A stretch of DNA of 64,000 nucleotides from positions 1 to 64,000 of the forward strand of contig NZ_BMEM01000003.1 in the NCBI RefSeq assembly GCF_014636495.1, given 5' to 3'. Positions within the stretch are counted from its first letter, which is position 1; every line of letters starts with the position of its first letter. Shown here piece after piece: positions 1 through 64,000 of this stretch. Under the pieces are notes generated by a model. That model did no database searches. It worked only from the letters and a program-made list of their open reading frames with translations, and had not been told where the DNA came from. The position numbers and the translations under genes were made by a program. This stretch comes from Ornithinimicrobium tianjinense. GTDB lineage: Bacteria > Actinomycetota > Actinomycetes > Actinomycetales > Dermatophilaceae.

Positions 1-42
1 AAACACGCCGGAGACGACGACCTCAGCTACCGCGCTACACCA

Positions 43-249
43 CTATGCGGGACTCAACTCTGAGCGGTCGTCCGCCTCTGCAGCGCGCTTGACCTCCTCG
101 AGCAGTTCCGCGGGGAAACGAACCGGCACGGGTGCGCTCATCGGACGCTTGCGACGACGCGCAGATCCCTGGGGCTCCTGGTTGCGCGGGTCGGCGTAGA
201 ACTCGTACTCCTCCTCCGGCGTCATCGGCCGGCTGTTGTCAGTGCTCAT
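43..249 (-). CDS. Short ribbon-helix-helix antitoxin-like protein, probably truncated
   Basis: A 68-residue protein. It begins MSTDNSRPMTPEEEYEFYAD, passes through a basic stretch (ARRRKRP) and has a segment VPVRFPAELLEEVKRAAEAD at about residues 41-60 that resembles the strand-helix start of CopG/BrnA-type ribbon-helix-helix antitoxins. I chose the ATG at 249 because a GGAGGG Shine-Dalgarno lies just upstream; an earlier in-frame ATG has none. In relatives as I recall them, the sequence after DDRS continues into a second helix (SWIRRAV-like). Here it becomes ELSPA and stops, so the fold may be incomplete. No toxin gene is adjacent inside the window. Function is inferred from pattern only. 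Confidence 0.5.
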   Translation of the reverse strand: MSTDNSRPMTPEEEYEFYADPRNQEPQGSARRRKRPMSAPVPVRFPAELLEEVKRAAEADDRSELSPA

Positions 250-535
250 CACGGTCCCTCCGGTACGTAGCGGCGAGGCCCGAAGACGCCTCGTAGCAAC
301 CGATCGGTCGGCACCTGCTCGCACCGTGATTGCCACCCCGGATGAGACGGTGGCGCTTGGAGACGCGGACGGGATGCTGGTGTTGCCCCTGCCTCAGGCA
401 CGAGAACCTGACTGGTCGTGACAACCGACGAAGTCGACCCCACCGGGTTGGAGAGGGTCTGGGTAGACCTGGTCGCGGTCGAAGACTGAGCACAGCTTGA
501 CTCGTGGCCGCACACTACTGCCGCGCGTCGGGCGG

Positions 536-883
536 TCACAGCTGCAGATGGATTCGCAACGCTTCATCGACCGCGGCCATGAGGCGGTGCGACACCCGGC
601 CTACCGCAGAACCGACCCTCTCAACTGCGACGGAGCGCACCTGCTCCGCCTGGGCCTTGGAGTCCACCCGCAGTCCTGTCTCGTCGGCTGGCAGCAACAC
701 CTGGAACGGGAAGATCCGCTCCACGTTGCTGGTCACGGGCACGACGGTGACTACTCCACGACCGAGTCGTTCAGCCATGGTGTTCGCCCGATCATTGCTG
801 ACGAGCACCGCGGGCCGCCGCTTGTTGGCCTCGCTGCCGCGCACCGGATCCAGATCGACGAGAAGGATCTCACCGCGCAGCAT
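536..883 (-). CDS. mazF: MazF/PemK-family mRNA interferase toxin
   Basis: A 115-residue protein with the MazF/PemK layout. The N-terminal [20 protein letters not shown] is the RGEI...L.P..G.E..K signature. It is followed by RPAVLVSND and by [10 protein letters not shown], the strand that carries the conserved Ser/Thr of these ribonucleases. Family members cleave single-stranded RNA at short sequences. The start codon lies inside the last codons of the upstream antitoxin gene (14-base overlap), the usual arrangement for translationally coupled toxin-antitoxin pairs. Length is normal and the core motifs look intact, so it is probably active when free of its partner. Confidence 0.9.
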
Positions 884-1100
884 CGGTCAGCCCGTCCGAG
901 GACGTTGACGCCCACGCGTCTTCGTCCCCTGCAACGGCCCACTCCTCCCAGGCGGCGGCATAGGCCGCCTCCAGCTGCGGGTCCTGCAGGCGGCGGATGG
1001 CCTGCTGGACGGCAGCCGACCTCGACTCGAGGCCAGCTTCTTCGACGTAACGGTCGAGGGCCGCGAGGTCTTGCTCGCTCAGACTTACGCTCACCTTCAT
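870..1100 (-). CDS. mazE: MazE-like ribbon-helix-helix antitoxin
   Basis: A 76-residue protein. The N-terminal [20 protein letters not shown] is a ribbon-helix-helix strand plus first helix, and [14 protein letters not shown] at about residues 27-40 is the second helix. The acidic C-terminal half ([20 protein letters not shown]) is the likely toxin-wrapping segment. This is the MazE form common in mycobacteria and relatives, not the AbrB-like form of Escherichia coli. It overlaps mazF. No Shine-Dalgarno is visible before the ATG, and a TAGTAT -10 box ends six bases upstream, so the message is probably leaderless. Two CTACCTGAGTAG boxes upstream suggest autorepression. Confidence 0.85.
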
Positions 1101-1106
1101 GCATCG

Positions 1107-1320: not shown

Positions 1321-2064
1321 TCACCGGCCGGCCCTGGCGCAGGAGTAGAGGTGCGACTCCGCGAAGTCCTCGGCGGCGAGCGCGCGACCGACGAGGATGA
1401 CGGCCGCCTGGGTGAGGCCGTGCGCCTCGACCTGGTCGGCGATGTCGGCGAGCGTGCCCCGCAGGACGAGCTCGTCGGGCTGGCTGACCTGCGAGCCGAC
1501 GACGACGGGGCAGTCGGCGCCGTAGTGCTCGGTCAGCTCCTCCGCCAACCTACGGGTATGCCGGATGGCCAGGTGGAGCACGAGCGTCGCCCCGGTCGCT
1601 GCGAAGGCGGCGAGCTGCTCGCCCGGGGGCATCTTCGTGGAGTCCTTCTGCGCGCGGGTGAGCACGACGGACTGCGCCACCTCCGGCACGGTGAGCTCAC
1701 GACCGACGAGGGCGGCGGTCGCGGCATACGCGGGGACGCCGGGGGTCACGTCCCAGGGGACGCCGGCAGCGTCGAGACGGCGGGTCTGCTCGGCGATCGC
1801 GGAGTAGACGCTCGGGTCGCCGGAGCACAGGCGCGCGACGTCCTGGCCGGCGCGGTGGGCCTCGACGAGCCGCGCGGTGATCTCGTCGAGGGTCATCCGC
1901 TGCGTGTCGACCAGGCCGGCGCCCTCGGGGCAGTGCGAGAGGACCTCGGCGTCGAGGTAGGTGCCGGCGTAGAGGCAGACCGGGCTGGACTCCAGCAGGC
2001 GCACTGCGCGCAGGGTCAGCAGGTCGGCGGCGCCCGGGCCGGCGCCGATGAAGTGGACGGTCAT
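1321..2064 (-). CDS. cobM: Precorrin-4 C11-methyltransferase
   Basis: A 247-residue tetrapyrrole methylase that uses S-adenosylmethionine to methylate C-11 of precorrin-4 in corrin-ring synthesis. The N-terminus VHFIGAGPGAADLLTLRA carries the GxGPG loop of the family. YAGTYLDAEVL, DTQRMTLDEI, GDPSVYSAI and VTPGVPAYAA follow in the order typical of CobM/CbiF. Length is normal. The ATG overlaps the cobL stop by four bases, so the two genes are translationally coupled, with cobL first. No gene follows downstream before the mazEF promoter. Confidence 0.93.
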   Translation of the reverse strand: MTVHFIGAGPGAADLLTLRAVRLLESSPVCLYAGTYLDAEVLSHCPEGAGLVDTQRMTLDEITARLVEAHRAGQDVARLCSGDPSVYSAIAEQTRRLDAAGVPWDVTPGVPAYAATAALVGRELTVPEVAQSVVLTRAQKDSTKMPPGEQLAAFAATGATLVLHLAIRHTRRLAEELTEHYGADCPVVVGSQVSQPDELVLRGTLADIADQVEAHGLTQAAVILVGRALAAEDFAESHLYSCARAGR

Positions 2065-3293
2065 GGCTGGTCCTTCCGGAGGGCGGAGAGCTGGACGACG
2101 GGTCGGGCGGGCGTCCAGGACAGGTAGCGGCCGAGCGGGCGAGCGTGCTCGACGGTGAGGCGGGTCAGCTCGGCGTCCCAGCCGGCGCGGACGAGATCGG
2201 CCCGCGCCGCGACCAGGACCGCCTCGGTCTCGAGGGTGACGGCGTGCGCGACGAGACGACCGCCGACCGGCACGTGGGGCCGCACCGCGTCGAGCACGGC
2301 AGCGCTCAGGCCACCGCCGACGAAGACGGCGTCGGGGCTGGGGAGATCGGCGAAGGGCGCCTCCGACAGTCCTGCCGCGACCACCGACAGCCGCGCGCCC
2401 ACCCCCAGATCGTCTGCGTTGCAGCGGATCCGGTCGACACGTGCGGGGTCGCGCTCCACCGCAGTGCAGGTCGCCCGCGGCGCGGCCAGGCACCACTCGA
2501 GGCCGACCGACCCGGACCCGGCGCCCAGGTCCCAGAGGTGCGCGCCGGCGGTCGGCCGCAGGTGCGCCAGGGCGCTCGCCCGCACGTCACGCTTGGTGAT
2601 CTGCCCGTCGTGGTCGAACGCGTCCTCCGGCCTCCCCGGTGCCGGGCCCGCCGCTGCTGCACCCAGCGGCACCTCCACGCAGCACAGCACCAGGTCGGGC
2701 GTCAGCTCCCCCGCCGGCCAGGACGCCGCCGACCCCGTGCGCGAGCCCTCGTCGACCCCGCCGAGGCGCCAGAGGGTGGTGAGTGTCGCCATACCGAAGC
2801 CGCGGTCCGTGAGCAGCGCCGCGAGGCGCGCGGGATCGGCACCGTCTGAGCAGAGCACGACGACGCGGGCGCCCGGCGCCAGGAGGGGCAGGACGGCGCG
2901 CAGGTCGCGGCCGACCGCGGTGACGACGTCGGTGGTCTCCGCGGACCAGCCCATCCTCGCCCGCGCCAGGGTCTCGCTCGACAGCGCGGGGTGGATGCGC
3001 ACGGCTGCCGCGCCGAGCAGGTCGACGAGCGTGGTGCCCACCCCGGAGCGCAGCGGGTCGCCGCTGGCCAGGGCCACGACGCCGCCACGGTCGACCTCGA
3101 TCTCGGCGAGCAGGCCGGACAGGCCGGCACGCAACGGCGAGGGCCAGGTATGCCGTTCCTGCCCCGCCACCGCAGGGACCAGCCCCAGGTGGCGGCGGCC
3201 GCCGAGGAGCACGCGCGCACCCGTCACGAGCCCGCGGGCACGCCCGTCGAGCACCTCCCAGCCGGCCTCGCCCAGCCCCACCACGTCGATCAC
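2061..3293 (-). CDS. cobL: Precorrin-6Y C5,15-methyltransferase (decarboxylating), CbiE-CbiT fusion
   Basis: A 410-residue bifunctional enzyme that methylates C-5 and C-15 and decarboxylates the acetate side chain of precorrin-6B. The N-terminal half (MIDVVGLGEAGWEVL, LASGDPLRSGVG) is the CbiE methylase domain. The C-terminal half has the CbiT signature ITKRDVRA followed by LWDLGAGSGSVGLEW near residue 255, the S-adenosylmethionine site. The start is GTG. A TAGAGT -10-like box ends eight bases upstream with no clear Shine-Dalgarno, suggesting a very short or absent leader. It runs divergently from the riboswitch-controlled importer. Confidence 0.93.
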   Translation of the reverse strand: MIDVVGLGEAGWEVLDGRARGLVTGARVLLGGRRHLGLVPAVAGQERHTWPSPLRAGLSGLLAEIEVDRGGVVALASGDPLRSGVGTTLVDLLGAAAVRIHPALSSETLARARMGWSAETTDVVTAVGRDLRAVLPLLAPGARVVVLCSDGADPARLAALLTDRGFGMATLTTLWRLGGVDEGSRTGSAASWPAGELTPDLVLCCVEVPLGAAAAGPAPGRPEDAFDHDGQITKRDVRASALAHLRPTAGAHLWDLGAGSGSVGLEWCLAAPRATCTAVERDPARVDRIRCNADDLGVGARLSVVAAGLSEAPFADLPSPDAVFVGGGLSAAVLDAVRPHVPVGGRLVAHAVTLETEAVLVAARADLVRAGWDAELTRLTVEHARPLGRYLSWTPARPVVQLSALRKDQP

Positions 3294-3386
3294 GGAGGCT
3301 GACTCTAGCCAGGGCCGGATTGCTCGGCGGTCACCGAGCAGCCCGCGGCGCCGGTGCTACTGTGCACGCCGACCGGCCACCCCGGT

Positions 3387-3590: not shown

Positions 3591-4652
3591 ATGCCCCCTC
3601 GGCGTCCCCTGTCCTCACACCTGCTCGCGCCGCCTGCGGCGTGCTTGGTGCTGCTCGCCGTGCTGCTCGCGGGCTGCGCCGGCCCGCCCGGCCCGCCCGG
3701 CGCGTCCGTCCAAGACCCCGCGACCGGGAGCGCCCCGGGCAGCGACGCCTTCCCGGTCACGATCGACAACTGCGGCGTCGAGGTCACCGTCACCCAGGCC
3801 CCGACGAGCATCGTCACGCTCAACCAGGGCGCCACCGAGCAGGCCCTCGGCCTGGGGCTGGCGAACCGGATGGCGGGCACGGCATACCTCGACGACGAGG
3901 TGGCGGCGCGCTTCGCGGCCGACTACGCGCGGGTGCCCGTGCTCTCGCCGGAGTACCCGAGCCTCGAGCAGTTCCTCGCCGCAGGGCCGGACCTGGCGCT
4001 GACCTCCTACGAGAGCTCGTTCACCGACGAGGTCGTCGGCACGCGCGAGGAGCTCGCCTCTCGCGGCATCGCGACGTATGTCGACCCGCTCGACTGCCCC
4101 CGCACGCCCGGCGCCGCGGAGCCCGGCTTCGAGGACGTCTGGTCAGCGCTGCGCGAGATCGGGCGGCTCACCGGGGCGTCCGCGGCGGCCGAGGAGCTCG
4201 TGGCCGCGCAGGAGGCGCAGCTCGGCGCCGTCGACGTGGCTGCGGCCCCGGGGACGACCGTGCTCTGGTACGACTCCGGCGAGGACACCCCGTTCGTCGG
4301 CGTGGCCGACAGCGGACCGGCGATCATCCTGGACGCGCTCGGCGCCGACAACGTCTTCGGCCACCTCGACGGGGGCTGGGCGGACGGGTCGTGGGAGACG
4401 GTCCTGGAGGCCGACCCCGACGTCATCGTCCTCCCCGACGCGCTGTGGTCCACGGCCGAGGACAAGATCGACTACCTGGAGCAGGACCCGGTGCTGCGCG
4501 AGCTGACCGCCGTCCGGGAGGAGCGCTACGTCGTGGTGCCGTTCAGCGAGACCACGCCCGGGGTGCGGCTGGTCGACGGGGCGGTGCACGTGGCCGAGCA
4601 GCTGGCCGACCTGGACCTCGCCGACGTGGGCCGGGGGGTCGGGTCGCGGTGA
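3591..4652 (+). CDS. btuF: Corrinoid (B12-type) ABC importer substrate-binding lipoprotein, copy 1
   Basis: A 353-residue lipoprotein. The signal peptide ends at the lipobox LLAGC, with the lipidated Cys at residue 29, followed by a G/P-rich tether. The mature part is a periplasmic-binding fold of the BtuF/FhuD class: FPVTIDNCGVEVTV, SIVTLNQGATEQALGLGL and GPDLALTSYESSF. I start at the ATG 3591 because the riboswitch ends just before it; an upstream in-frame extension would run through the RNA element. The stop overlaps the permease start (TGATG). The B12 riboswitch is the main evidence that the ligand is a corrinoid and not a siderophore. Confidence 0.85.
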   Translation: MPPRRPLSSHLLAPPAACLVLLAVLLAGCAGPPGPPGASVQDPATGSAPGSDAFPVTIDNCGVEVTVTQAPTSIVTLNQGATEQALGLGLANRMAGTAYLDDEVAARFAADYARVPVLSPEYPSLEQFLAAGPDLALTSYESSFTDEVVGTREELASRGIATYVDPLDCPRTPGAAEPGFEDVWSALREIGRLTGASAAAEELVAAQEAQLGAVDVAAAPGTTVLWYDSGEDTPFVGVADSGPAIILDALGADNVFGHLDGGWADGSWETVLEADPDVIVLPDALWSTAEDKIDYLEQDPVLRELTAVREERYVVVPFSETTPGVRLVDGAVHVAEQLADLDLADVGRGVGSR

Positions 4653-5737
4653 TGACGATGCTGAGGGCCCCGGCCTGGCCGCTCGGGGTCGTCGGCTGCG
4701 TCGTGCTCGGGGTGAGCGCCGTGGTGGTGCTCGGCCTCGGCTCCGTGCAGGTCGCGCCCGTCGACGTGGTGGAGGTGGTCGCCCGGCGCCTGCGGCTCGT
4801 CGACGGTGCCGGCGTGACGGTCCTGGAGGACCAGATCGTCTGGCAGCTGCGGCTGCCTCGGGTGCTGGCGGCGATGGCCGTCGGGGCGGTGCTCGCGCAG
4901 TGCGGCGCGGTGATGCAGTCGCTGCTGGGCAACGAGCTGGCCGACCCGTTTCTGCTCGGCATCTCCGGCGGCGCGGCGCTCGGCGCGGTGGTCGCCCTCA
5001 CCGTCGGTATGCCGCTCCTCGGCCTCTCCCTCCTCGGCACGGCCGCGTCGGAGGTCGCGTCGGGTGTCGCGGCCGCCGTCGGTGTGGGCGGTGCCGCGAT
5101 GGCCGGTGCGGTGCTCACGCTGGTGCTCGTCCTCGCCCTGGCCACCGACCGCAGCGGCACCCTGCCTGCATCGCGGACGATCCTCGCCGGGGTGGCCATC
5201 GCTCAGCTGGCCTCCGCCGCGACGTCGATGCTCATCATCCTGCTGGGCAGTCGGGACACCGCCCGGCAGGTGCTGGCCTGGACGCTCGGCTCCTTCGCTG
5301 GCGTCCGGGCCGGGAGCGCCGTGCTGCTGGTGGTCCTCGGGCTGGGCGTCGTCGCGGGCCTCACGGCGACAGCCAAGACCCTCGACGCCTTCGCCTTCGG
5401 CGAGACGGCCGCCCGCTCGATGGGGGTCGACGTGCGCCGCGTCACCTGGCTGCTGCTCGTCGGCACCGCCCTGGCGACCGCCGCGACCGTGGGGGTCGTC
5501 GGGCCGATCGGCTTCGTCGGGCTCGTCGTGCCCCACCTGGTGCGCCTGGTGGTGGGACCGGGACACCGCGGGCTGCTGCCGCTGACGGCGCTGGCCGGCG
5601 CGCTGCTCATGCTGTGGGCCGACACCGCCGCCCGCTCGCTGGCACCGGGTCAGGAGATCCCGGTCGGCATCCTCACGGCCGCGGTCGGTGCACCCGTGCT
5701 GGTCGCGCTGCTGCGCCGGCAGGCGAGGCGGGCATGA
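4652..5737 (+). CDS. btuC: Corrinoid ABC importer permease, copy 1
   Basis: A 361-residue FecCD/BtuC-type integral membrane protein with about nine to ten hydrophobic segments. Diagnostic stretches are LRLPRVLAAMAVGAVLAQCG, LLGNELADPFLLGISGGAALGA and VGPIGFVGLVVPHLVRLVVG, the last forming the cytoplasmic loop that contacts the ATPase. The ATG overlaps the btuF stop and its own stop overlaps the ATPase start (ATGA), so the three proteins are made as one coupled unit. Length and motifs are normal; nothing suggests damage in this subunit. Confidence 0.9.
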   Translation: MTMLRAPAWPLGVVGCVVLGVSAVVVLGLGSVQVAPVDVVEVVARRLRLVDGAGVTVLEDQIVWQLRLPRVLAAMAVGAVLAQCGAVMQSLLGNELADPFLLGISGGAALGAVVALTVGMPLLGLSLLGTAASEVASGVAAAVGVGGAAMAGAVLTLVLVLALATDRSGTLPASRTILAGVAIAQLASAATSMLIILLGSRDTARQVLAWTLGSFAGVRAGSAVLLVVLGLGVVAGLTATAKTLDAFAFGETAARSMGVDVRRVTWLLLVGTALATAATVGVVGPIGFVGLVVPHLVRLVVGPGHRGLLPLTALAGALLMLWADTAARSLAPGQEIPVGILTAAVGAPVLVALLRRQARRA

Positions 5738-10606: not shown

Positions 10607-11221
10607 ATGGCCCAAGGACAGGTCACCGTCACCCCCGACGACGGACGCACGACGCGACAGCGACGGCATACCCCGCTGGTCGTGGTCCACAGCGGCGCCG
10701 GCAAGGGGAAGTCCACCGCCGCCTTCGGCCTCGCGCTGCGCGGCTGGAACCAGGGCTGGTCGATCGGGGTCTTCCAGTTCGTCAAGTCCGCGAAGTGGCG
10801 GATCGGCGAGGAGGAGGCGCTGCTGGCGCTCGACGAGGTGCACCGCACCACGGGCAAGGGCGGGCCGGTCGAGTGGCACAAGATGGGCTCGGGCTGGTCC
10901 TGGTCGCGCAAGGCCGGCACCGAGGAGGACCACGCCGCCGACGCGCAGGAGGGCTGGGCCGAGATCAAACGCCGCCTCGCCGAGGAGACCCACCAGCTCT
11001 ACGTGCTCGACGAGTTCACCTACCCGATCAAATGGGGCTGGATCGACCCCGAGGACGTCGTGACGACGCTGCGCGAGCGCCCCGGCTACCAGCACGTCGT
11101 CATCACCGGCCGCGACCCGCACCCCGCGCTGCTCGAGATCGCCGACGTGTCGACCGAGATGACCAAGCTCGCGCACCCCTTCGACAAGGGGCAGAAGGGC
11201 CAGAAGGGCATCGAGTGGTAG
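10607..11221 (+). CDS. cobO: Cob(I)yrinic acid a,c-diamide adenosyltransferase
   Basis: A 204-residue enzyme that transfers the 5'-deoxyadenosyl group of ATP to the cobalt of reduced corrinoids. The phosphate-binding loop VHSGAGKGKSTAAFGLALR, the stretch FVKSAKW and the C-terminal block VVITGRDPHPALLEIADVSTEM are all characteristic of CobO/BtuR. The start follows the chelatase stop by one base, and its end overlaps the GTG start of the next gene, so it is tightly coupled in the riboswitch-controlled operon. Length is normal. Confidence 0.95.
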   Translation: MAQGQVTVTPDDGRTTRQRRHTPLVVVHSGAGKGKSTAAFGLALRGWNQGWSIGVFQFVKSAKWRIGEEEALLALDEVHRTTGKGGPVEWHKMGSGWSWSRKAGTEEDHAADAQEGWAEIKRRLAEETHQLYVLDEFTYPIKWGWIDPEDVVTTLRERPGYQHVVITGRDPHPALLEIADVSTEMTKLAHPFDKGQKGQKGIEW

Positions 11222-20319: not shown

Positions 20320-20357
20320 CCCGCCAGGGTATGCCGCTCCTGTGCCACGATCGGTCC

Positions 20358-52080: not shown

Positions 52081-53525
<1,445 letters not shown>

Positions 53526-54776: not shown

Positions 54777-56173
54777 GCGAGTCCTCTCTCGAGCAGGCGC
54801 CCGCGGGGCGGGGCGTCGTCGGTGACGGGTATGCCGCGCAGCCAGGTCCGCCGGACCGCACCGGTCAGGTGGCGGTCGGCGTAGGCGGAGACAGGGTTCT
54901 TGTGCCTCAGCCGCGCCACGTCGACGTCCCACTCCGCCTCGGGGGCGAACGCGACGAGGTCCGCGTCGGCGCCGACCTCGATCCGTCCCTTGGTGGTCAG
55001 GCCGACGAGGTCGGCGGGGGCGGTCGCCATCCAGCGGACGACGTCGGCGAGGGGTATGCCGCGTCGGCGCGCCTCGGTCCAGACCAGCGGCAGGCCGAGC
55101 TGCAGGGAGGCGATGCCACCCCAGGCGGTGCCGAAGTCGCCGGTGTCGAGGTGCTTGAGGTCGGCGGTCGACGGCGAGTGGTCGGAGACGACGAGGTCGA
55201 CGTCGCCGGCGGTCAGGGCCTCCCAGAGGCGGTCCTGGTTGGCGTGGTCGCGGATGGGCGGGCAGCACTTGTACTGCGTGCCGCCGGTCGGGACGTCCTC
55301 GGCGGCGATCGTCAGGTAGTGCGGGCAGGTCTCGACGGTGACGGGGACGCCGTCGGCGCGGGCGTCGTGCAGGGCCGGGACGGCGTCGGCGGCCGAGAGG
55401 TGGAGGACGTGCGCGCGACCGCCGGTGCGGCGGGCCTCGGAGATGACGCGCTCGACGGCCGTGGTCTCGGCCGAGGTCGGGCGGGAGGCGAGGAAAGCGT
55501 CATACGAGAGGGGGGAGGCGGGGGCGTGCCGCGCGAGGTCGGCGGCGTCCTCGGCGTGGACGATCATGAGGGCGCCGATGCGGGCCGTCTCGTCCATCGC
55601 CGCGGCGAAGACCCCCGGCTCCAGGTGCGGGAACTCCTCCACGCCGGAGTCGGCGAGGAAGCACTTGAAGCCGAAGACGCCGGCCTCGTGCAGCGCCTCG
55701 AGGTCGCCGAGGTGGTCGGGCACCGCGCCGCCCCAGAAGCCCACGTCGACGACGACCTGGTCGCGGGCGACGTCCTGCTTGAGACGGAGGGCCTCGACGG
55801 TGACCGTGGACGGGATGCTGTTGAGCGGCATGTCGACGATGGTCGTGACGCCGCCTGCCGCCGCGGCGCGGGTCGCGCTGGCGAAGCCCTCCCACTCGGT
55901 GCGGCCGGGCTCGTTGACGTGGACGTGGGTGTCGACGAGGCCGGGCAGGAGCACCTCGTCGTCGGCGAGCTCGACGACGTCGGCGGCAAGCGCGTCGGAG
56001 CCCCTGCCGCTGGCGGGGCCCTGCGGGTCCCACTCCTCGACCCAGACGATGCGGCCCTCGTGCACGCCGAGCACCGCCGGCCGCTCGGTGCCCTCGACGA
56101 CCGCACGGCGGGCCCGGACCACGAGGTCCAGGGGGGCGGGGTCCAGGGGGGCGGGCTCACCAGCGATGCTCAT
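54773..56173 (-). CDS. allB: Allantoinase
   Basis: A 466-residue cyclic amidohydrolase that opens allantoin to allantoate. The metal site is GLVDTHVHVNEPGRTEWEGF, the carboxylated Lys lies in GVFGFKCFLADSG, further ligands are MIVHAEDAAD and AHVLHLSAADAVP, and the Asp motif is DLVVSDHSPSTADLK. The start ATG 56173 is chosen over a longer frame that runs into the intergenic repeats. It overlaps the allE start at its 3' end. Confidence 0.94.
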   Translation of the reverse strand: MSIAGEPAPLDPAPLDLVVRARRAVVEGTERPAVLGVHEGRIVWVEEWDPQGPASGRGSDALAADVVELADDEVLLPGLVDTHVHVNEPGRTEWEGFASATRAAAAGGVTTIVDMPLNSIPSTVTVEALRLKQDVARDQVVVDVGFWGGAVPDHLGDLEALHEAGVFGFKCFLADSGVEEFPHLEPGVFAAAMDETARIGALMIVHAEDAADLARHAPASPLSYDAFLASRPTSAETTAVERVISEARRTGGRAHVLHLSAADAVPALHDARADGVPVTVETCPHYLTIAAEDVPTGGTQYKCCPPIRDHANQDRLWEALTAGDVDLVVSDHSPSTADLKHLDTGDFGTAWGGIASLQLGLPLVWTEARRRGIPLADVVRWMATAPADLVGLTTKGRIEVGADADLVAFAPEAEWDVDVARLRHKNPVSAYADRHLTGAVRRTWLRGIPVTDDAPPRGRLLERGLA

Positions 56174-56651: not shown

Positions 56652-57767
56652 TCAGGGCAGGAGGGCGGCGAGCTGCCGGCCGACCTCCTCCAGCAGCGGG
56701 CCGGGGCGCTCGAAGGACTCCCGCGGGGTCGTGGCGAGGTCCGCGATGGCCCAGGCGCGCACGATGCCGGCCTCGGCCAGCCGCTCGGGGGTGAGCAGGA
56801 TCGCCCCGGCCACGGCGACGACCGGGATCCCGGCCTCCCGCGCCTCGGCGGCCACCCCGGCCGGGGCCTTCCCGTGCAGCGTCTGCTCGTCCAGCGCACC
56901 CTCCCCGGTCACGACCAGGTCGGAGCCCGGCAGCGCGTCGTGGAAACCGGTCAGCTCCAGCACGACGTCCACCCCGGGCCGCAGCGCGGCACCGAGGAGG
57001 GCGAGCGCGGCATACCCGACACCGCCGGCCGCACCGGCGCCTGCCGCGTCGCGCTGGTCCTGGCCGGTGGTGCGGGCGACGACGTCGGCGAGGTGGGCGA
57101 GGTTGGCGTCGAGCTGCTCGACGTGGTCGGGGGTCGCCCCCTTCTGCGGGCCGTAGACCGCGGCCGCGCCCTTGGTGCCGGTGAGCGGGTTGTCGACGTC
57201 GCACGCCACGACGAGCTCGACCTCCGCGAGCCGCGGGTGCAGGCCGGACAGGTCGACGGTCTCCAGGCTCGCCAGCCCGCCACCGCCGGGGCCGACCGGC
57301 GCCCCGTCCGCGTCGAGCAACCGCGCGCCGAGCGCCACGAGCATCCCGGCGCCGCCGTCGGTCGACGCGCTCCCGCCGATCCCGACGAGCACCTCCTCGG
57401 CACCGCGGTCGAGCGCGTGGGCGATCGCCTCCCCGAGCCCTGCACTGGTCGCCTCCAGCGGGGCACGGTCGTCGCCCAGTCGGGCCAGCCCGCACACCTC
57501 GGCCATCTCGACGACGGCTCGGGTGCCGTGCACGACATACCGGGTCGGGGCGGGCACGCCCAGCGCGTCCGAGGCGGTGAGCTGCACGTCGGTGTAGCCG
57601 ACCTCGGTCGCGGCGTCGAGCAGGCCGTCGCCGCCGTCGGCGACCGGCGCGGTCGCGACCTCCACGTCGGGGCGGGCCTGCAGGATCCCGGCCCGCAGGT
57701 GCTCGCAGACCTGGGCGGCGGTGAGGGTGCCCTTGAACTTGTCGGGGGCGAGGAGGATGCGCGTCAT
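56652..57767 (-). CDS. glxK: Glycerate kinase
   Basis: A 371-residue GckA/GlxK-type kinase: ILLAPDKFKGTLTAAQVCEH, VADGGDGLLDAA, GIGGSASTDGGAGMLVALGA, ACDVDNPLTGTKGAAAVYGP and VVTGEGALDEQTLHGKAPAG. It phosphorylates glycerate derived from glyoxylate by the tartronate-semialdehyde route, linking purine breakdown to glycolysis. It lies nine bases after uraH in the pucL-uraD-uraH-glxK unit. The ligase and reductase that make glycerate are not in this window. Confidence 0.92.
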   Translation of the reverse strand: MTRILLAPDKFKGTLTAAQVCEHLRAGILQARPDVEVATAPVADGGDGLLDAATEVGYTDVQLTASDALGVPAPTRYVVHGTRAVVEMAEVCGLARLGDDRAPLEATSAGLGEAIAHALDRGAEEVLVGIGGSASTDGGAGMLVALGARLLDADGAPVGPGGGGLASLETVDLSGLHPRLAEVELVVACDVDNPLTGTKGAAAVYGPQKGATPDHVEQLDANLAHLADVVARTTGQDQRDAAGAGAAGGVGYAALALLGAALRPGVDVVLELTGFHDALPGSDLVVTGEGALDEQTLHGKAPAGVAAEAREAGIPVVAVAGAILLTPERLAEAGIVRAWAIADLATTPRESFERPGPLLEEVGRQLAALLP

Positions 57768-58098: not shown

Positions 58099-58602
58099 TC
58101 AGACCGCCTCCTCGAGCCGCAGCAGCGCGATCTGCCGCAGGTTGTCGACGACCTCGGCACGCTCGGCGTCGTCGTCGTTGCCGAGCCGTCGCTGCAGCTC
58201 GGCCAGGATCTCCTCGCCGTCGCGGCCGGCCGCGCGGATGAGGAAGACCCGGTCGAACCTCTGCTCGTATGCCGCGTTGCCGCTGGCCAGGCGCGTCGCC
58301 AGGTCCGTGTCGGCGCTGTCCACGCCCGCCTGCTCGCGGCCGGAGGCCTGCTGGTTGTGGCCCGCGCCGGCCCGCTCCCCGATGCGGGGGTGCCCCGCGA
58401 GCGCCGCGTCCAGCTCGGCCGCGGTGAGGCTGCGGGCGGCGAGGTCGGCGGTGCGGACCAGGGCCACGCGATCGCCGTACGGACGGCCGGCCAGCACCTC
58501 CTCCACCCAGCGGTCGACGTCGAGGCAGCCGCGCAGCAGGGCCCGCGCCTCCTCGTCGGGCATCGTGTCGAAGGGCAGCGCGCCCGTCGCCCCCGGCCTC
58601 AC
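58099..58602 (-). CDS. uraD: OHCU decarboxylase
   Basis: A 167-residue enzyme that decarboxylates 2-oxo-4-hydroxy-4-carboxy-5-ureidoimidazoline to S-allantoin. LPFDTMPDEEARALLRGCLD opens the protein; the catalytic His is in LAGHPRIGERAGAG; YEQRFDRVFLIRAAGRDGEE and ELQRRLGNDDDAE complete the family pattern. GTG 58602 overlaps the uricase stop, so the two are translationally coupled. Confidence 0.94.
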   Translation of the reverse strand: MRPGATGALPFDTMPDEEARALLRGCLDVDRWVEEVLAGRPYGDRVALVRTADLAARSLTAAELDAALAGHPRIGERAGAGHNQQASGREQAGVDSADTDLATRLASGNAAYEQRFDRVFLIRAAGRDGEEILAELQRRLGNDDDAERAEVVDNLRQIALLRLEEAV

Positions 58603-59519
58603 ACGAACCCCGGGACGGCGGTCCACGCCTCGCCCGCGTCGCCCGCGTCCTCGCGCGCGACGGTGGCCTCGATCAGGCCGTAGGGACGGTCGGCGGCGAT
58701 GAACACCTCACCGTTGTTCTCGACACCGAAGCGCCCGAGGTCGTAGAGGAAGTGGTGCTTGTTGGGCGCCGAGAAGCGGATCTCCGCGACCTGCGGCTGG
58801 GTCTCCAGCACCGCGCGGCCCATCGCGTAGAGCGTCTCCTGCAGGGCCCGGCTGTAGGTCGTCGCGAAGGTCGACAGCAGGGTCGCCCGCACCTCCGCGT
58901 AGGCCGCGTCGAGGTCGACACCCTCCGTGCCGGACCACCGCCACCGGGCGGTGAGCGAGGTGGCCATGATGCGGTCGTCGGTCTCCTCGAGCGTGGTGTA
59001 GGCGTCCTTGAGGAAGCCGCGGAACTCCGAGCCGGTGGACTTGAGCACCACGAGGTCCTGCAGCCCCGACAGCACCCAGGTGCGCTGCTCCGCCCCGCGC
59101 CCCGCCACCGTCACCACGCAGGTGCGGGTCTCGGTGCCCCGCCTCACGAAGCTGTGGTCGTGGCCGTCCGGGCTGCCCTCCACCGCGATCCGGTCCCAGG
59201 CCTGCTCCTCGACCCGCACCTGCGCGGCGGTCGCGGCCGGGGCGGCGTCGAGGAAGTGCGAGGCGAGGGCGACGGCATACTCCTCCGGGGAGGAGACCCC
59301 GACCTCCTTGGCGTAGGCGAAGGCGGTGTTCTTCTGCGTGTCGGTGGGCAGCACGTCGGCCTGGTCGCCGTCGGTGTGCGCGCGGGAGAAGTCGCCGCGC
59401 AGCGAGGTGGAGACGTTGAGGTCGCGGATCTCGTGGCGGGGGGTGTCGCGCACGATCCGCACGACGCGGTTCTCCGCCTTGCCGTACTGGTTGGCGCCGA
59501 GCACGATCCCGTCGGTCAT
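58599..59519 (-). CDS. pucL: Urate oxidase (uricase)
   Basis: A 306-residue cofactor-free uricase. GANQYGKAENRVVRIVRD contains the catalytic Lys, TDTQKNTAFAYAKEVGVSSP the catalytic Thr, and VLKSTGSEFRGFLKDAYTTL and FSAPNKHHFLYDLGRFG the other family blocks. A TAGGTT -10 box ends six bases before the ATG without a ribosome site, suggesting leaderless start of the pucL-uraD-uraH-glxK transcript. It oxidises urate to 5-hydroxyisourate. Confidence 0.95.
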   Translation of the reverse strand: MTDGIVLGANQYGKAENRVVRIVRDTPRHEIRDLNVSTSLRGDFSRAHTDGDQADVLPTDTQKNTAFAYAKEVGVSSPEEYAVALASHFLDAAPAATAAQVRVEEQAWDRIAVEGSPDGHDHSFVRRGTETRTCVVTVAGRGAEQRTWVLSGLQDLVVLKSTGSEFRGFLKDAYTTLEETDDRIMATSLTARWRWSGTEGVDLDAAYAEVRATLLSTFATTYSRALQETLYAMGRAVLETQPQVAEIRFSAPNKHHFLYDLGRFGVENNGEVFIAADRPYGLIEATVAREDAGDAGEAWTAVPGFV

Positions 59520-59572
59520 GGGCCGAACCTAGGTGCGGGGCGGGAGCCCGTCAAGGTATGCCGTGGGCCGGG

Positions 59573-60829
59573 TCAGGCGCGGCGGGGCCGCGCCAGCGCC
59601 TCGAGCTCGGCGGCGGGGAGACCGACCGCGCGCTCCACCTCCTCGGGGCCCAGAGCACCGCAGTCGAGGCCTCTCACGACGAGGTCGGCGAGGGTCCGGG
59701 CGGTCGCCGGCTCGTCCATGACGGTGCCGCCGACCTGGTCGAGGTAGTCGCGCAGGCGCCGGGCGGCCGCCGGGAGGTGCTCGCGGTAGAAGGCGTAGGT
59801 GGCGGCGAACCGGCTCGGCAGCTGGGCGGGGTGGAGGTCCCAGCCCTGGTAGTAGCCGCGCTCGAGGGAACGTCGGACCAGCCGCAGGTGCCGCGCCCAG
59901 CCGTCGCGGACCTGGCTGTCGGTGCCGACGGGCAGGATGTTGGTCGAGCCGTCGGAGAGGCGGACGCCGGTGCCGGCCGCGGCCGCCTGCATGACGAGCT
60001 TGGCGTGGTCGGCGACGGGGTGCTCCATGGACTGGAAGGGGGCGGGTATGCCGCAGAAGGCGGAGTAGTCGTAGGTGCCGTAGTGCAGGCCGCTGGCCCG
60101 GCGGTCGCTCGCGTGGATCATCCGGGCGACGAGGGCCGTGCCGTCGGGGCCGAGGACCGACTGCGGGGTCTCGACCTGGATCTCGAAGCGCAGCGTGCGG
60201 TCGGGCAGGCCGACCGCGCCCTCGAGCCGCTCGCACACGCGCACCATCGCCGCGACCTGGGCCACGCTGGTGACCTTGGGCAGCGTGACCGCGACCCGGT
60301 CGAACGAGCCGCCGGCGGCGTGCAGGCCCTGGACGAAGCGGGTCAGCGTGCGCACGCCCCGGGCTCGCGTCGGGCCCTCGAAGGACCGGAACCGGATGCC
60401 CGCGAAGGGTGGGGCCGTGCCGTCGCGCTGGGTCTGCGCCAGGGCGGCGGCGGCCGCGTCGACGTGCGCGTCCTCCTCCACGTCGGGGTGGCGGCCGTAG
60501 CCGTCCTCGAGGTCGATGCGCAGGTCCTCGACCGGCTCGCGGTCGAGCTTGGCGGCGACGAGCCCGAGGAGCTGGTCGGCCGGCACGGTCGTGTGGCTGG
60601 CGAGCAGCTCGGCGAGGGTGGCCTCGTGCTCGGTCAGGGCCGCCCGGGCCTGCGCGCCCCAGCGCTGCACGAGGTGGGCGTCGTAGACATGTGCGGGGAC
60701 GTAGACCGTGTGGACCGGTTGACGGGAGGCGGTGTCGCCGGGGAACCGCGAGACCAGGGCCGCGTCGTCCTCCCGGAGCAGCTCGTCGAGCTCGGCGGTG
60801 AGGTGGTCTGCGAGCTGGTCGGAGGACAT
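59573..60829 (-). CDS. DUF6986 / HpcH-HpaI aldolase-like protein
   Basis: A 418-residue protein with an aldolase/citrate-lyase-like barrel: EDLRIDLEDGYGRHPDVEED (metal-binding Glu/Asp segment), IRFRSFEGPTRARGVRTLTR, VAVTLPKVTSVAQVAAMV, LRFEIQVETPQSVLGPDG and SDRRASGLHYGTYDYSAFCG. It is likely a lyase acting on a small keto acid. As I recall, relatives are often near uricase genes in actinobacteria, which suits a role at the glyoxylate end of the pathway. TACAGT ends seven bases before ATG 60829, so I use that start; GTG 60847 is possible. Confidence 0.75.
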   Translation of the reverse strand: MSSDQLADHLTAELDELLREDDAALVSRFPGDTASRQPVHTVYVPAHVYDAHLVQRWGAQARAALTEHEATLAELLASHTTVPADQLLGLVAAKLDREPVEDLRIDLEDGYGRHPDVEEDAHVDAAAAALAQTQRDGTAPPFAGIRFRSFEGPTRARGVRTLTRFVQGLHAAGGSFDRVAVTLPKVTSVAQVAAMVRVCERLEGAVGLPDRTLRFEIQVETPQSVLGPDGTALVARMIHASDRRASGLHYGTYDYSAFCGIPAPFQSMEHPVADHAKLVMQAAAAGTGVRLSDGSTNILPVGTDSQVRDGWARHLRLVRRSLERGYYQGWDLHPAQLPSRFAATYAFYREHLPAAARRLRDYLDQVGGTVMDEPATARTLADLVVRGLDCGALGPEEVERAVGLPAAELEALARPRRA

Positions 60830-61290: not shown

Positions 61291-62475
61291 TCAGCCGCGC
61301 GCGCCGCTGTAGACACCGCGCAGCCGGAAGCGCATGCCCGGCTCCGCGAGCTCCTCGATGGCGTGGGCCGTCCAGCCGGAGGTCCGGGCGCACGCGAAGA
61401 TCACCGCGCCGGCCCACCGCGGCAGGTCGTAGGCCATGACGAGCAGCGCGAGGGCGGCATCGATATTGACCAGCCAGCCACGGCGCTCGAGGAGCTCGGC
61501 CTCGATGTGGCGCAGCGCCCTCAGGGCGTCGCCCGTCGCCTGCTCCTCCAGGAGCGCGATCAGCACCTGGGCGCGCGGGTCCTGCTCGGTGTAGACGACG
61601 TGCCCGAAACCGGGCGGTCGGTCCCCGGCCAACGCGGCGTCCAGGGCAGCCTGGGGCGCCTCGGTGGCCCCGCGCAGCCAGTCGACCGCCCGCAGCGAGG
61701 CGGTCATGTGCTGCGGGCTGTCGGCGGCGGCGAGCCCGGCGAGCAGCGCGCTGTAGGGATCCGCCCCCGACGACACCGCCACGCGCACGGCGGTCGTCGA
61801 CACCGCGAGGTCGTGGTCGGCCAGCAGCACGAGCGCGGCGTCGATCAGGGTGGGCGGGCACGGCGCCAGGGGTATGGCGAGCAGCTCGGCCAGGGTGCCC
61901 GGCCCGCCCGCCGCCGCCCCTGGCACGGCGAGGGCCATCGCGGTCGCCGCCCGGGCGCCTGCTCGCGCGAACGCCTCGGGACGCCGGTCCTGCCGGCCGA
62001 CGTCGGTGGCTCCCGCGACCAGCACTGCGTGCTTCATCCGGTCCAGCGGCCCGGTGGCGTCGGGGAGCGCGGCGAGAAGGGGAGCGAGGGCATCGCGGAG
62101 CGGGTCGAACGACTCTCGCGACGGCATACCGGGCACGAGGTCCCCGGTGAGGAGGGCACGGACCTCCTCGGCGGAGGCGTGCCCGGCGAGGTCGGTGACG
62201 TCCCGCCCCCGGTAGGCCAGCCGTCCCGGGCCGATCTCGGTGATCGCCGTGCGCACGTCATCGCTCGCGGCAGGCCGGCGGCGACGCCCCGAGCGCGCAC
62301 CCCCGGCGAGCGCCTGCACGTCGGCGAGGGCGAAGAGGCTGCCCGCCGACGGGTCGCGCCGCAGCGGGGTCAGGACGCCCCGGCTGACGTAGGCGTAGAC
62401 GGTCTGCACCTTCACGCCGAGGTAGTCCGCGACCTGCGCGGACGTGAGCTCGCCCTCCGGCCGGAGACGGCTCAT
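61291..62475 (-). CDS. Citrate synthase-like protein with N-terminal MerR-type helix-turn-helix
   Basis: A 394-residue protein. Residues 8-50 (ELTSAQVADYLGVKVQTVYA, YVSRGVLTP) are a MerR/excisionase-like DNA-binding domain. The rest is citrate-synthase-like: AYRGRDVTDLAGHASAEEV, GFGHVVYTEQDPRAQ (second His motif) and WLVNIDAALALLV (Asp motif). The first His motif, usually LHGG, is not recognisable; SPQHMTASL stands at about that place. It may be an enzyme that controls its own gene or a regulator sensing a citrate-related ligand. It is divergent from a second citrate synthase across a 53-base gap with paired palindromes. Confidence 0.8.
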   Translation of the reverse strand: MSRLRPEGELTSAQVADYLGVKVQTVYAYVSRGVLTPLRRDPSAGSLFALADVQALAGGARSGRRRRPAASDDVRTAITEIGPGRLAYRGRDVTDLAGHASAEEVRALLTGDLVPGMPSRESFDPLRDALAPLLAALPDATGPLDRMKHAVLVAGATDVGRQDRRPEAFARAGARAATAMALAVPGAAAGGPGTLAELLAIPLAPCPPTLIDAALVLLADHDLAVSTTAVRVAVSSGADPYSALLAGLAAADSPQHMTASLRAVDWLRGATEAPQAALDAALAGDRPPGFGHVVYTEQDPRAQVLIALLEEQATGDALRALRHIEAELLERRGWLVNIDAALALLVMAYDLPRWAGAVIFACARTSGWTAHAIEELAEPGMRFRLRGVYSGARG

Positions 62476-62508
62476 GTTGACTCGATCAACGTTGACACGG
62501 TGATCAAC
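62476..62508 (+). promoter_or_regulatory. Paired palindromic operator between two citrate synthase genes
   Basis: GTTGACTCGATCAAC (62476-62490) is followed directly by GTTGACACGGTGATCAAC (62491-62508). Both have GTTGA/TCAAC ends, with 5- and 8-base spacers. The first abuts the ATG of the minus-strand HTH-citrate synthase; TTGACA at 62492-62497 could be a -35 element for the plus-strand gene. This is a plausible site for the HTH domain of the minus-strand protein. Confidence 0.75.
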
Positions 62509-62528
62509 CCTAGGTCACGCTCGCTGAC

Positions 62529-63674
62529 ATGACCAGCACCCAGATCGTCGCCCCCGCCGGGCTCAAGGACGTCGTCGTCGCGGACACCACCACCGGGGAC
62601 GTGAGGGGGCGGGAGGGCTTCTACCACTTCCGGCAGTACCCCGCGGTCGAGCTCGCGCGGACACGGTCCTTCGAGGACGTCTGCCACCTCATGCTCGAGG
62701 GGACCCTGCCCACGCCGGCGCAGTCGGCGGCGCTGCGGGAGCGCCTCGCCGCCGCGGCCGTGCTCCCGCCCGAGCTGCTGCGGCTGCTCCCCGACGTCGC
62801 CCGGTCGGGGCCGGACCGCGCCTCGCTCTCGCGGCTGCGCACCGCGGTCTCGCACCTCGGCGCGCTGGACGGCTTCGCCCCGACGTATGGCGCGCCCGCC
62901 GAGCAGGTGCGCGCCGACGTGCTCCGGCTGGTGGCGACCGTGCCTGTGCTCCAGGCCGCGATCCACCGGCTGCGCGCCGGGCTCGATCCGCTGCCGGCGC
63001 GACCGGAGCTGGGGGCGGCCGGCAGCTGGCTGTGGATGCTCGGCGGGGAGGAACCGGGCGAGAGGGAAAGGCGGGCGATCACGGCATACCTGACCTCGAC
63101 GGTGGACCACGGCTTCAGCGCGTCGACCTTCGCCGCGCGGGTGGTGACCTCGGCGGGCTCGGACGTCGCCTCCGCGATCTGCGCGGCGATCGGCACGTTC
63201 GCCGGGCCGCTGCACGGCGGCGCCCCCGACCGCGCGCTGGATGCGCTCGACGAGATCGGGTCGGCGGACCGGGCGCGGGAGTGGGTGCGCGAGAAGGTCG
63301 CGGCCGGCGAGCGGATCATGGGCTTCGGGCACGCGGTCTACCGGACCATGGACCCCCGTGCGGCGCTGCTGCGGGAGATCGCGGTCGGGATGGGTGGGCC
63401 GCTCGTGGACCTCGCGGTCCGGGTCGAGGAGGAGGTCGTGAGCGCGCTGGCCGAGCTCAAGCCCGGGCGGGAGCTGCACACCAACGTCGAGTACTACGCG
63501 GGCGTGGTCATGGAGCTGTGCGGGATCCCGCGCGAGATGTTCACGCCGACCTTCGCGACGGCGCGGGTCGTCGGCTGGGGCGCGCACGTCATCGAGCAGA
63601 CGCAGAGCCCGAAGATCTTCCGGCCGTCCGCACGCTACGTCGGCCCCGAGGCCCCCGCACCCCTGCCGTCCTGA
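62529..63674 (+). CDS. Citrate synthase (CitA/citrate synthase 2 type)
   Basis: A 381-residue single-domain citrate synthase-like enzyme: LKDVVVADTTTGDVRGREGF, FAGPLHGGAPDRALDALDEI (first catalytic His), IMGFGHAVYRTMDPRAALL (second His) and LHTNVEYYAGVVMELCGIPR, where the usual catalytic Asp position is Glu, as I recall it in the actinobacterial CitA group. It condenses acetyl-CoA with oxaloacetate or a related acyl-CoA/keto-acid pair. It shares its upstream region with the HTH-bearing paralogue, which may regulate it. Confidence 0.88.
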   Translation: MTSTQIVAPAGLKDVVVADTTTGDVRGREGFYHFRQYPAVELARTRSFEDVCHLMLEGTLPTPAQSAALRERLAAAAVLPPELLRLLPDVARSGPDRASLSRLRTAVSHLGALDGFAPTYGAPAEQVRADVLRLVATVPVLQAAIHRLRAGLDPLPARPELGAAGSWLWMLGGEEPGERERRAITAYLTSTVDHGFSASTFAARVVTSAGSDVASAICAAIGTFAGPLHGGAPDRALDALDEIGSADRAREWVREKVAAGERIMGFGHAVYRTMDPRAALLREIAVGMGGPLVDLAVRVEEEVVSALAELKPGRELHTNVEYYAGVVMELCGIPREMFTPTFATARVVGWGAHVIEQTQSPKIFRPSARYVGPEAPAPLPS

Positions 63675-63675
63675 C

Positions 63676-64000
63676 CTACTCCCCCGCCAGCGCGCTGCGC
63701 AGCGCCCTCTCTTCCTCGTCCGTGAGCCCGCAGGCCCGCGGCCGGGCCTCGTCCCGGGTCTCTTCGTAGGCCAGCGCCCGCGCCAGGGTCTCCTCCAACG
63801 GCCGGGTGACCAGGCCCTCCCGCCGGGCTGCGGAGGTGTCCAGCGTCGAGAACCACCGCATCGTCGGCTCGGCGATCCACAGCGGCAACGACCTCGGACC
63901 CATCCACTGGTTGACGCCCTCGCGAGCCAGCACGTCCAACGCCACCGGACGCGCCTCGGCACCGCTGCCGGCGACGCGCCGGGCGGCGTCGACCACCGCG
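63676..64000 (-). CDS. C-terminal part of an NAD-dependent epimerase/reductase-like protein (partial)
   Basis: The last 107 or so residues of a gene that enters from beyond the right edge. ALDVLAREGVNQWMGPRSLP followed by LWIAEPTMRWFSTLDTSAAR and EGLVTRPLEETLARALAYEE resembles the C-terminus of actinobacterial NAD-dependent epimerase/dehydratase proteins, in which a return of the sugar or flavonoid-reductase-like domain packs on the Rossmann fold. Without the N-terminal nucleotide loop the assignment is tentative. It is convergent with the citrate synthase, two bases apart. Confidence 0.55.
   Translation of the reverse strand, partial: AVVDAARRVAGSGAEARPVALDVLAREGVNQWMGPRSLPLWIAEPTMRWFSTLDTSAARREGLVTRPLEETLARALAYEETRDEARPRACGLTDEEERALRSALAGE

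Follow-up and report, generated by a model that had tools for sequence, protein, structure and literature searches.

A dispersed, non-palindromic DNA word with uptake-sequence-like features in Ornithinimicrobium and its family

Why does one short word recur throughout a 64-kb stretch of actinobacterial DNA, and what might read it? The stretch (the window, C3:1-64000, from a contig of the 3.31-Mb, 12-contig, 100% complete genome of Ornithinimicrobium tianjinense) carries GTATGCCG 25 times and its complement CGGCATAC 28 times, 53 sites in all. A first-pass annotation had proposed that an octamer present in about 50 copies, with about two expected, reflects DNA-level selection for methylation, chromosome organisation, recombination or repair. 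Selection at the DNA level is supported by a codon-preserving null, by enrichment in all codon phases, by conservation at orthologous places and by recurrence across the family. The closest known kind of element is one that the annotation had not listed, the DNA uptake sequence, and the word is probably a self-recognition tag for incoming DNA or for DNA repair.

Abundance, consensus and spacing of the word

The expectation for the core in the window is 1.9 copies under independent bases, 0.76 under an order-1 and 1.25 under an order-2 Markov model, and GTATGCCG is the window's most over-represented 8-mer by order-1 score. The first count was thus accurate, and the ten example positions given with it all lie within 3 bases of a site. 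The excess is real, and its unit needs adjusting: the core is GTATGCCG, preceded by G at 43 of the 53 sites, and the octamer originally named, GGTATGCC/GGCATACC (20 + 23 copies), captures only a subset. Genome-wide, the core occurs in 872 + 886 copies, about one per 1.9 kb, and the reversed word in 15 + 14; reversed-word controls give 17 against 1283 for the octamer and 29 against 1758 for the core.

The codon-preserving null covered 464 kb (the window plus 400 kb of contig C1) with 421 predicted genes, from home-made and hence approximate gene calls; synonymous codons were shuffled, pooled over genes, 20 times for totals and 10 times for codon phases. Sense GTATGCCG occurs 128 times in these genes against a shuffled mean of 6.25 (maximum 11), and antisense CGGCATAC 90 times against 2.95 (maximum 6). 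Counts by codon phase are 4/24/100 against 0.2/1.8/3.9 for GTATGCCG and 16/55/19 against 0.3/2.1/0.3 for CGGCATAC, with all six phases above their own expectation and a 20- to 30-fold excess over the synonymous null. The earlier statement that this is not a codon effect therefore holds in every phase; the count is not within two-fold of the null and the enrichment is not confined to one frame, the two outcomes named at the time as telling against selection. "All reading frames" was right for the 464 kb, where the sixth phase has 4 sites, and the window's own sites use five of the six. Its remarks on codons fared less well: half, not most, of the window's TAT (21/42) and ATA (5/10) codons lie inside the motif, only 9 of 94 GCA codons do, and the site at 10664, read as a CAT-ACC codon pair, is intergenic by our gene calls. 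Hundreds to thousands of copies on both strands, far over codon and Markov nulls, are also a mark of uptake sequences.

Near-matches reveal how the word is graded. In 864 kb of the genome, G precedes the core at 343 of 477 sites and follows it at 25 of 477. On both strands of the 464 kb, single-mismatch forms range from none to about twice the order-2 expectation, positions 6 and 7 excepted: at position 6, C exceeds expectation 33-fold and the alternatives A, G and T do so 9-, 7- and 9-fold, the relaxed forms being GTATGACG (45 against 5.0), GTATGGCG (59 against 8.1) and GTATGTCG (37 against 4.0), and at position 7, A is nearly 4 times over. The core consensus is accordingly GTATGNCG, with C preferred, mostly preceded and seldom followed by G. 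Because mismatches are tolerated chiefly at position 6, and A at position 7, the full consensus is G-GTATGNCG-[T/C/A], graded like a binding preference. By inspection, the motif has no internal palindrome of at least 4 bases. A longer dispersed repeat was rejected, as flanks beyond -1 to +2 carry little information.

Five window sites are intergenic. In the 464 kb, gaps that separate tandem genes carry 1.25 sites/kb (29 sites), those of divergent gene pairs 0.84 (12) and those of convergent pairs 0.20 (2); all other DNA carries 0.53. Inverted pairs of the Pasteurellacean uptake signal sequence (USS) often serve as terminators (PMC7811141, PMC5217627); here hairpin-like pairs are few, and terminator hairpins were rejected as an explanation, convergent close pairs being few and density lowest between convergent genes (2 sites in 9.9 kb, against 0.53/kb in coding DNA). 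Spacing of all sites is near-Poisson in 400 kb (coefficient of variation 1.00), and counts per 20 kb show no over-dispersion (mean 10.5, variance 9.6). The two orientations are about equally frequent in every one of ten 40-kb chunks of C1:1-400 kb, so that strand polarity is absent at that scale (the origin was not located); the proposed look at strand bias thus came out even over 400 kb rather than from origin to terminus.

Orientation of neighbouring sites follows a rule of its own. Neighbours are of opposite orientation in 143 of 209 cases in C1:1-400 kb (p 5e-8), in 37/52 in the window, in 35/55 in genome G011 and in 127/203 across 22 other motif-carrying loci. When the window is pooled with 800 kb of the genome and 140 kb of G011, pairs of like orientation reach 0.38 of expectation below 250 bp, then 0.52, 0.58, 0.71 and 0.71 in successive bins to 1.5 kb, and 1.04 at 1.5-2 kb, while opposite-orientation pairs to 1.5 kb stand at 1.06-1.40 with no depletion. 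The 1.5-kb limit had been read off an earlier pooled set and was then tested on 400 kb next to the first stretch, not used before, where 121/213 neighbours are opposite (p 0.027) and pairs closer than 1.5 kb number 102 opposite against 56 same, 86 of each being expected (permutation p 0.0005, the floor of 2,000 shuffles). Outside the genus the pattern is weaker: G188 gives 103 opposite against 61 same (p 0.0005), but it formed part of the data that set the limit, and the pooled same-orientation ratios there are 1.04, 0.83, 0.56, 0.86 and 0.74. In Ornithinimicrobium, then, a second same-strand copy within about 1.5 kb is redundant or disfavoured, and a copy on the other strand is not. Since same-strand copies avoid each other and opposite-strand copies do not, function looks strand-specific. 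We know of no trivial cause of such exclusion; the direction of genes would be expected to produce stretches of like-oriented copies.

Sites are also held in place. Orthologous regions of 20 kb, nineteen in all from the genus, were aligned pairwise together with the window's final 24 kb (a pair was kept if at least 2 kb aligned, and pieces shorter than 200 bases were discarded), and sites were counted from both sides, in species pairs that are not independent. At 65-75% nucleotide identity (105 pairs), the exact motif stands at the aligned place in 144/235 cases (61%), the corresponding share being 15% for 8-mers in general and 18.5% for those matched in GC; at 80-85% identity it is kept at 448/594 (75%) against a background of 30-37%. 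Conservation of the motif at orthologous places thus far exceeds the background. Among the four longest motif-free gaps in C1:1-400 kb, two are mobile islands: the longest, of 12.7 kb (223986-236657, GC 0.696), holds a phage-type integrase, a P-type ATPase, a cation efflux protein and a redox enzyme, and that of 8.6 kb (C1:259030-267609, GC 0.691) a TrwC relaxase. The 10.1-kb gap has ordinary genes (2 of 12 scanned, a HemD fusion and a deacetylase-family protein), and the 8.7-kb gap contains most of the Tad pilus locus; only 9 of the 30 genes in the 12.7-, 10.1- and 8.6-kb gaps were scanned. A PADLOC search with seven island proteins revealed nothing relevant to the motif.

Distribution and variant words among relatives

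The comparison with related genera that the first-pass annotation had suggested was made on 186 genomes of a family group (f1) that we take to be the Dermatophilaceae of GTDB. The core reaches at least 85 copies/Mb in 112 of them (motif-rich; median 438, maximum 1,356), stays below 35 in 62 (motif-poor; median 10) and lies between in 12, both thresholds having been chosen after the table was seen. Motif-rich genomes have a median core-to-reversed-control ratio of 11.2, and motif-poor ones a median of 2.1; in genera g30 and g43 the control is itself raised and the core is only about 2.5-6.5 times above it. Strands are nearly equal in motif-rich genomes. Whole genera lack the motif (e.g., g52, 16 genomes, and g2, 12), and losses occur within motif-rich genera, in G022 (one of 31 genomes of the source genome's genus), where 50 copies amount to near-complete loss, in G065 (g30) and in G140 (g58). 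None of 22 genomes from the same order but another family shows clear enrichment, and in a class-wide draw of 344 genomes (8 from the family) no outsider reaches 85/Mb; the clearest partial exception outside the family is G474, with 94 + 76 copies against 9 + 18 reversed.

On a ComEC tree of 39 rows, the source genome falls among Ornithinimicrobium (the ComEC proteins of G003 and Ornithinimicrobium sp. CNJ-824 are identical, with zero branch lengths), and the motif label needs 6 changes, which is compatible with one gain and repeated loss on a tree whose deep forks are weak. ComEC neighbourhoods of 13-22 kb carry 6-22 copies in Ornithinimicrobium cavernae, Ornithinimicrobium sp. F0845, Arsenicicoccus bolidensis, Humibacillus xanthopallidus, Intrasporangium oryzae, Knoellia remsis, a Terrabacter, Phycicoccus elongatus and a Tetrasphaera metagenome-assembled genome (MAG), and none in those of Phycicoccus jejuensis, Intrasporangium flavum and Janibacter indicus (12 kb).

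Related words, GTACGNCG, GGATGCCG and GAATGCCG, occur in some relatives. Against the codon-preserving null, G145 has GTACGCCG 118 times against 20.6, GTACGACG 61 against 15.5 and CGTACGCC 95 against 16.5; G201 has GGATGCCG 79 times against 14.4; and a Phycicoccus MAG locus (L086) has GAATGCCG 9 times against 0.5, beside GTATGCCG 7 against 0.9. G034 uses GTATGNCG (GTATGGCG 17 against 1.6, GTATGACG 16 against 2.1, GTATGCCG 37 against 2.6), the best word of G206 is CGAACGAT (10 against 0.9), and the four words listed for G031 are only 2- to 2.4-fold over the null. An unrelated word, CGAAGGG[G/A], is over-represented in g52 and g61 (G149, G112, L186, L190, L195), CGAAGGGG occurring 50 times against 9.0 in G149 and, less distinctly, 37 against 9.6 in G112. 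Janibacter indicus (L093) has CCCCTTCG 6 times against 1.0. Beyond these, GTACG-type words exceed the codon null in loci of Kribbella, a Frankiaceae MAG, a Marmoricola MAG and Nocardioides (L102, L116, L130, L134, L123, L151); in Kribbella/Nocardioides loci, of about 13-20 kb coding DNA each, GTACGTCG occurs 17 times against 3.0 (L102) and 13 against 1.2 (L134). A Propionibacterium MAG locus (L155) has GGACGCCG 40 times against 14.4 and GGCGTCCG 37 against 12.2. Dialects, another mark of uptake sequences, are thus present, though weaker than the 20- to 30-fold main motif.

Possible readers of the word

With moderate confidence, we read the motif as an uptake-sequence-like self-recognition tag for natural transformation in an actinobacterial family. 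A competence DNA receptor, most plausibly of a Tad/Flp pilus with ComEA/ComEC, would prefer DNA carrying GGTATGCCG; fragments from kin would be taken up and recombined more often than other DNA, and this bias would slowly fix and maintain the word genome-wide by molecular drive. Each site may act one way over about 1-1.5 kb of one strand, so that a nearby same-strand copy would be redundant and an other-strand copy would not, and lineages would change the word (dialects) or lose it. We infer all three of the uptake machinery as reader, transformation in these species and the direction of action. The uptake reading is favoured because the word is non-palindromic, strand-balanced, present in all phases and graded, with variant words and repeated loss, as in Neisseriaceae and Pasteurellaceae; a graded consensus with strand balance and no palindrome is what a protein-binding preference under drive should leave.

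Sequence-specific uptake has been described for those two families (PMC1939737), and the likeness to both can be drawn in some detail. The neisserial DNA uptake sequence (DUS) is likewise a non-palindromic word of about 10 bases with more than 1000 copies per genome on both strands and dialects that keep some positions (PMC3630211); GTATGCCGT shares ATGCCGT with the neisserial 12-mer, probably by chance (PMC2346458). Unlike the DUS, the motif belongs to high-GC actinobacteria without type IVa PilM, lacks the neisserial core CTG and shows same-strand exclusion over 1.5 kb, and its uptake is putative. The USS is similarly spaced (about 1 per kb, against about 1 per 1.9 kb here), has graded near-matches as here, and its accumulation is explained by uptake bias (PMC7811141, PMC1939737); its predicted receptor is a minor pilin (PMC12616744). 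In the uptake data of one study, the orientation of the sequence had no effect (PMC1939737), unlike the strand-specific spacing described here. Micrococcus luteus, an actinobacterium, transforms with ComEA/ComEC and Flp pili (PMC4322843, PMC6370729).

Machinery of this kind is present. ComEC was found in 31/31 genomes tested (17 of the family), and the source genome has, besides ComEC, a Tad locus at C1:134,648-137,656 with, in order, TadA (T2SSE), two T2SSF proteins, a DUF4244 protein and a TadE-like protein just over cut-off; from its place in the locus, the DUF4244 protein may be Flp-pilin-like. Neither the Tad ATPase nor the DUF4244 pilin survived as a tracker of the motif, both occurring in motif-rich and motif-poor genomes, and the uptake genes are for that reason at most necessary. 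At a completeness of 95% or more, DUF4244 is lacking in the motif-poor genomes G137, G138 and G139 and in the motif-rich G063 as well. No gene in 20 Tad and 21 comEC neighbourhoods, with imperfect gene calls, is confined to motif-rich species, and a truncated ComEC in G022 was discarded as a lesion since the contig ends there. TadA-type ATPase matches with one in-frame TGA each were seen in motif-poor G147:C2 and G111:C59.

Several observations weigh against an uptake tag. The literature searched lists no report of transformation in this family. T2SSE ATPases occur in 183/186 and DUF4244 in 172/186 family genomes, motif-poor ones included, and G063, which lacks a DUF4244 match, is 100% complete as well as motif-rich. 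PilM of type IVa pili passes the cut-off in 0/17 family genomes (one sub-threshold match, G006), and the receptor is therefore not expected to be a ComP-type pilin of the type IVa kind; neither a receptor nor another reader protein was found, in searches that were not unbiased. There is no gene-end bias (quintiles 22/30/26/27/23 and 16/17/18/20/19 in 464 kb), unlike in Pasteurellaceae (PMC2346458). Same-strand exclusion is not significant in G158 (76 against 64) or G034 (38 against 36), nor is neighbour alternation in G188 (69/126), G158 (57/108) or G034 (25/57). In genomes with variant words, unrelated GC-rich words also run 2- to 4.5-fold over the null, which makes the dialect claims weaker than that for the main motif. 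Strand-specific spacing does not follow from the classical uptake picture, in which sequence orientation had no effect on uptake (PMC1939737), and same-strand exclusion suggests, if indirectly, that such indifference does not hold here. Orientation indifference is perhaps not a defining feature of uptake sequences; strand spacing would follow if recognition set the direction of single-strand import or recombination, or if the word were Chi-like.

Only tentatively would we go further, to a first Gram-positive uptake-sequence system that would be strand-specific and Tad/Flp-read, each copy licensing the import or recombination of about 1-1.5 kb of one strand on one side, which would explain why same-strand copies keep apart, with independent strand lattices, the dialects GTATGNCG, GTACGNCG, GGATGCCG and GAATGCCG and a possible species barrier to gene exchange across the family. 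Such a barrier might perhaps reach further, to the Kribbella and Nocardioides loci with words of the GTACG type. Among the matches listed for open-licence PMC, with subscription papers and preprints outside that search, none reports this word or any uptake sequence from actinobacteria; of the 4,004 papers that contain one of the motif's words, none of the 30 listed has a title concerned with a bacterial genome motif, and the excerpted text of PMC3497702, PMC2843746 and PMC5217627 does not mention the word. A viral-contig search with a window protein gave no match.

A Chi-like signal is a serious rival to the uptake tag, though we think it rather unlikely. Chi sites are over-represented, strand-specific recombination signals, in known species usually skewed along the replication direction. 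On this account, a helicase-nuclease other than RecBCD (e.g., AdnAB) would read one strand while resecting a break and switch to recombination, and since breaks have two ends, both strands would need a copy every few kb. Strand-specific action with a reach of about 1.5 kb fits it, as do conserved sites at orthologous places, two mobile islands among the longest motif gaps and the change of word between lineages. Unlike Chi, itself a class of over-represented oligomers (PMC4390886), the motif has no local strand skew, its two orientations being near-equal in each of the ten 40-kb chunks, and does not depend on RecBCD: RecC occurs in 49/112 motif-rich and 36/62 motif-poor genomes and is absent from 52 of the 87 with at least 300 copies/Mb. 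G065 carries RecC but not the motif, the reverse is true of its four motif-rich congeners, and in g58 all three genomes have RecC and only G140 lacks the motif. As RecC does not track the motif across genomes or in these contrasts, RecBCD is not its general reader. The recombination or repair role first suggested thus keeps some standing, in a form without RecBCD.

A chromosome-organising or segregation motif bound by a nucleoid protein, also among the first suggestions, is improbable. The genome-wide, near-Poisson placement in coding and non-coding DNA would suit it; the lack of strand polarity at the 40-kb scale disfavours a replication-polarised motif, relatives use variant words, and an essential motif should not vanish as easily as it has from G022, a single species of a motif-rich genus.

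Still less probable is an epigenetic methylation motif of the HIP1 class. HIP1 octamers of cyanobacteria are, like the motif, abundant and maintained genome-wide and are lost or replaced by other words in some lineages, and they are palindromic and linked to orphan methyltransferases (PMC4390886). The present word has no palindromic subsite on inspection and is not tied to either methylase family examined. In a hand-picked sample of 66 of the 186 genomes (42 motif-rich and 24 others, all of them motif-poor but for the intermediate G078), PF01555 occurs in 10/42 and PF02384 in 26/42 motif-rich genomes, and the source genome has no match to either at E<=1e-5; N6/N4 methylases of these two families do not follow the motif and were set aside as its trackers, which disfavours the methylation option of the first-pass annotation. 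A composition or codon artefact, to which the preference of the sense word for the phase G-TAT-GCC (100/128 in genes) might point, is refuted by the codon-preserving shuffle in all phases, the reversed-word controls and an intergenic density above that of coding DNA, convergent-gene gaps excepted.

Window sites and wider meaning

Sites are collected in Table 1 with other features of the window. The cobalamin riboswitches (Rfam RF00174, RF01482) lie near chelatase-type and CobQ/CbiA-type domain genes. Two parts of the 22-base repeat around ACCGGACAGGCGTT, namely CCTGTCCG and AGGCGTTC, exceed expectation 4.5- and 5.8-fold in the 464 kb (arrays included), and the repeat may for that reason be spread in the genome. 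The tandem CACGAC array encodes a histidine/aspartate-rich stretch.

Table 1. Core sites and further features of the 64-kb window, with strand where assigned.
Feature	Position	Strand
GTATGCCG site	1556..1563	+
GTATGCCG site	1722..1729	-
GTATGCCG site	3148..3155	+
GTATGCCG site	3880..3887	-
GTATGCCG site	5007..5014	+
GTATGCCG site	8795..8802	-
GTATGCCG site	9129..9136	+
GTATGCCG site, intergenic by our gene calls	10664..10671	-
GTATGCCG site	12057..12064	+
GTATGCCG site	12716..12723	-
GTATGCCG site	13647..13654	+
GTATGCCG site	15327..15334	-
GTATGCCG site	15580..15587	+
GTATGCCG site	15678..15685	-
GTATGCCG site	16318..16325	+
GTATGCCG site	16405..16412	-
GTATGCCG site	17607..17614	-
GTATGCCG site	18937..18944	+
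GTATGCCG site	20329..20336	+
GTATGCCG site	20720..20727	+
GTATGCCG site	22278..22285	-
GTATGCCG site	23176..23183	+
GTATGCCG site	24497..24504	-
GTATGCCG site	26223..26230	+
GTATGCCG site	28384..28391	-
GTATGCCG site	28815..28822	+
GTATGCCG site	29005..29012	-
GTATGCCG site	30155..30162	-
GTATGCCG site	30589..30596	+
GTATGCCG site	33601..33608	-
GTATGCCG site	34568..34575	+
GTATGCCG site	36815..36822	-
GTATGCCG site	36936..36943	+
GTATGCCG site	38500..38507	+
GTATGCCG site	38682..38689	-
GTATGCCG site	41015..41022	+
GTATGCCG site	42006..42013	-
GTATGCCG site	46355..46362	-
GTATGCCG site	47050..47057	-
GTATGCCG site	47883..47890	-
GTATGCCG site	48347..48354	-
GTATGCCG site	51336..51343	-
GTATGCCG site	52230..52237	-
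GTATGCCG site	52936..52943	+
GTATGCCG site	54829..54836	+
GTATGCCG site	55054..55061	+
GTATGCCG site	57008..57015	-
GTATGCCG site	58267..58274	+
GTATGCCG site	59273..59280	-
GTATGCCG site	59556..59563	+
GTATGCCG site	60046..60053	+
GTATGCCG site	62122..62129	-
GTATGCCG site	63082..63089	-
Cobalamin riboswitch	3376-3555	
Cobalamin riboswitch	8280-8376	
22-base repeat array	15949-16051	
22-base repeat array	56211-56656	
1664-aa protein with BTAD, STAND NTPase and WD40-type repeats	30788-35782	
Tandem CACGAC array, inside predicted gene 39454-40599	39517-39647	

The origin and reading of uptake words are still debated. A Gram-positive family with a comparable word, within-genus gain and loss, variants and Tad instead of type IVa pili would offer an independent evolutionary replicate, and the zone of same-strand exclusion gives a measurable hint of the mechanism, one that genomes of Neisseria and Haemophilus allow to be checked. 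Should the word prove to be a recombination signal, it would indicate that actinobacteria without RecBCD have a Chi-like system. Either way, donor DNA bearing the word may make these organisms genetically tractable.

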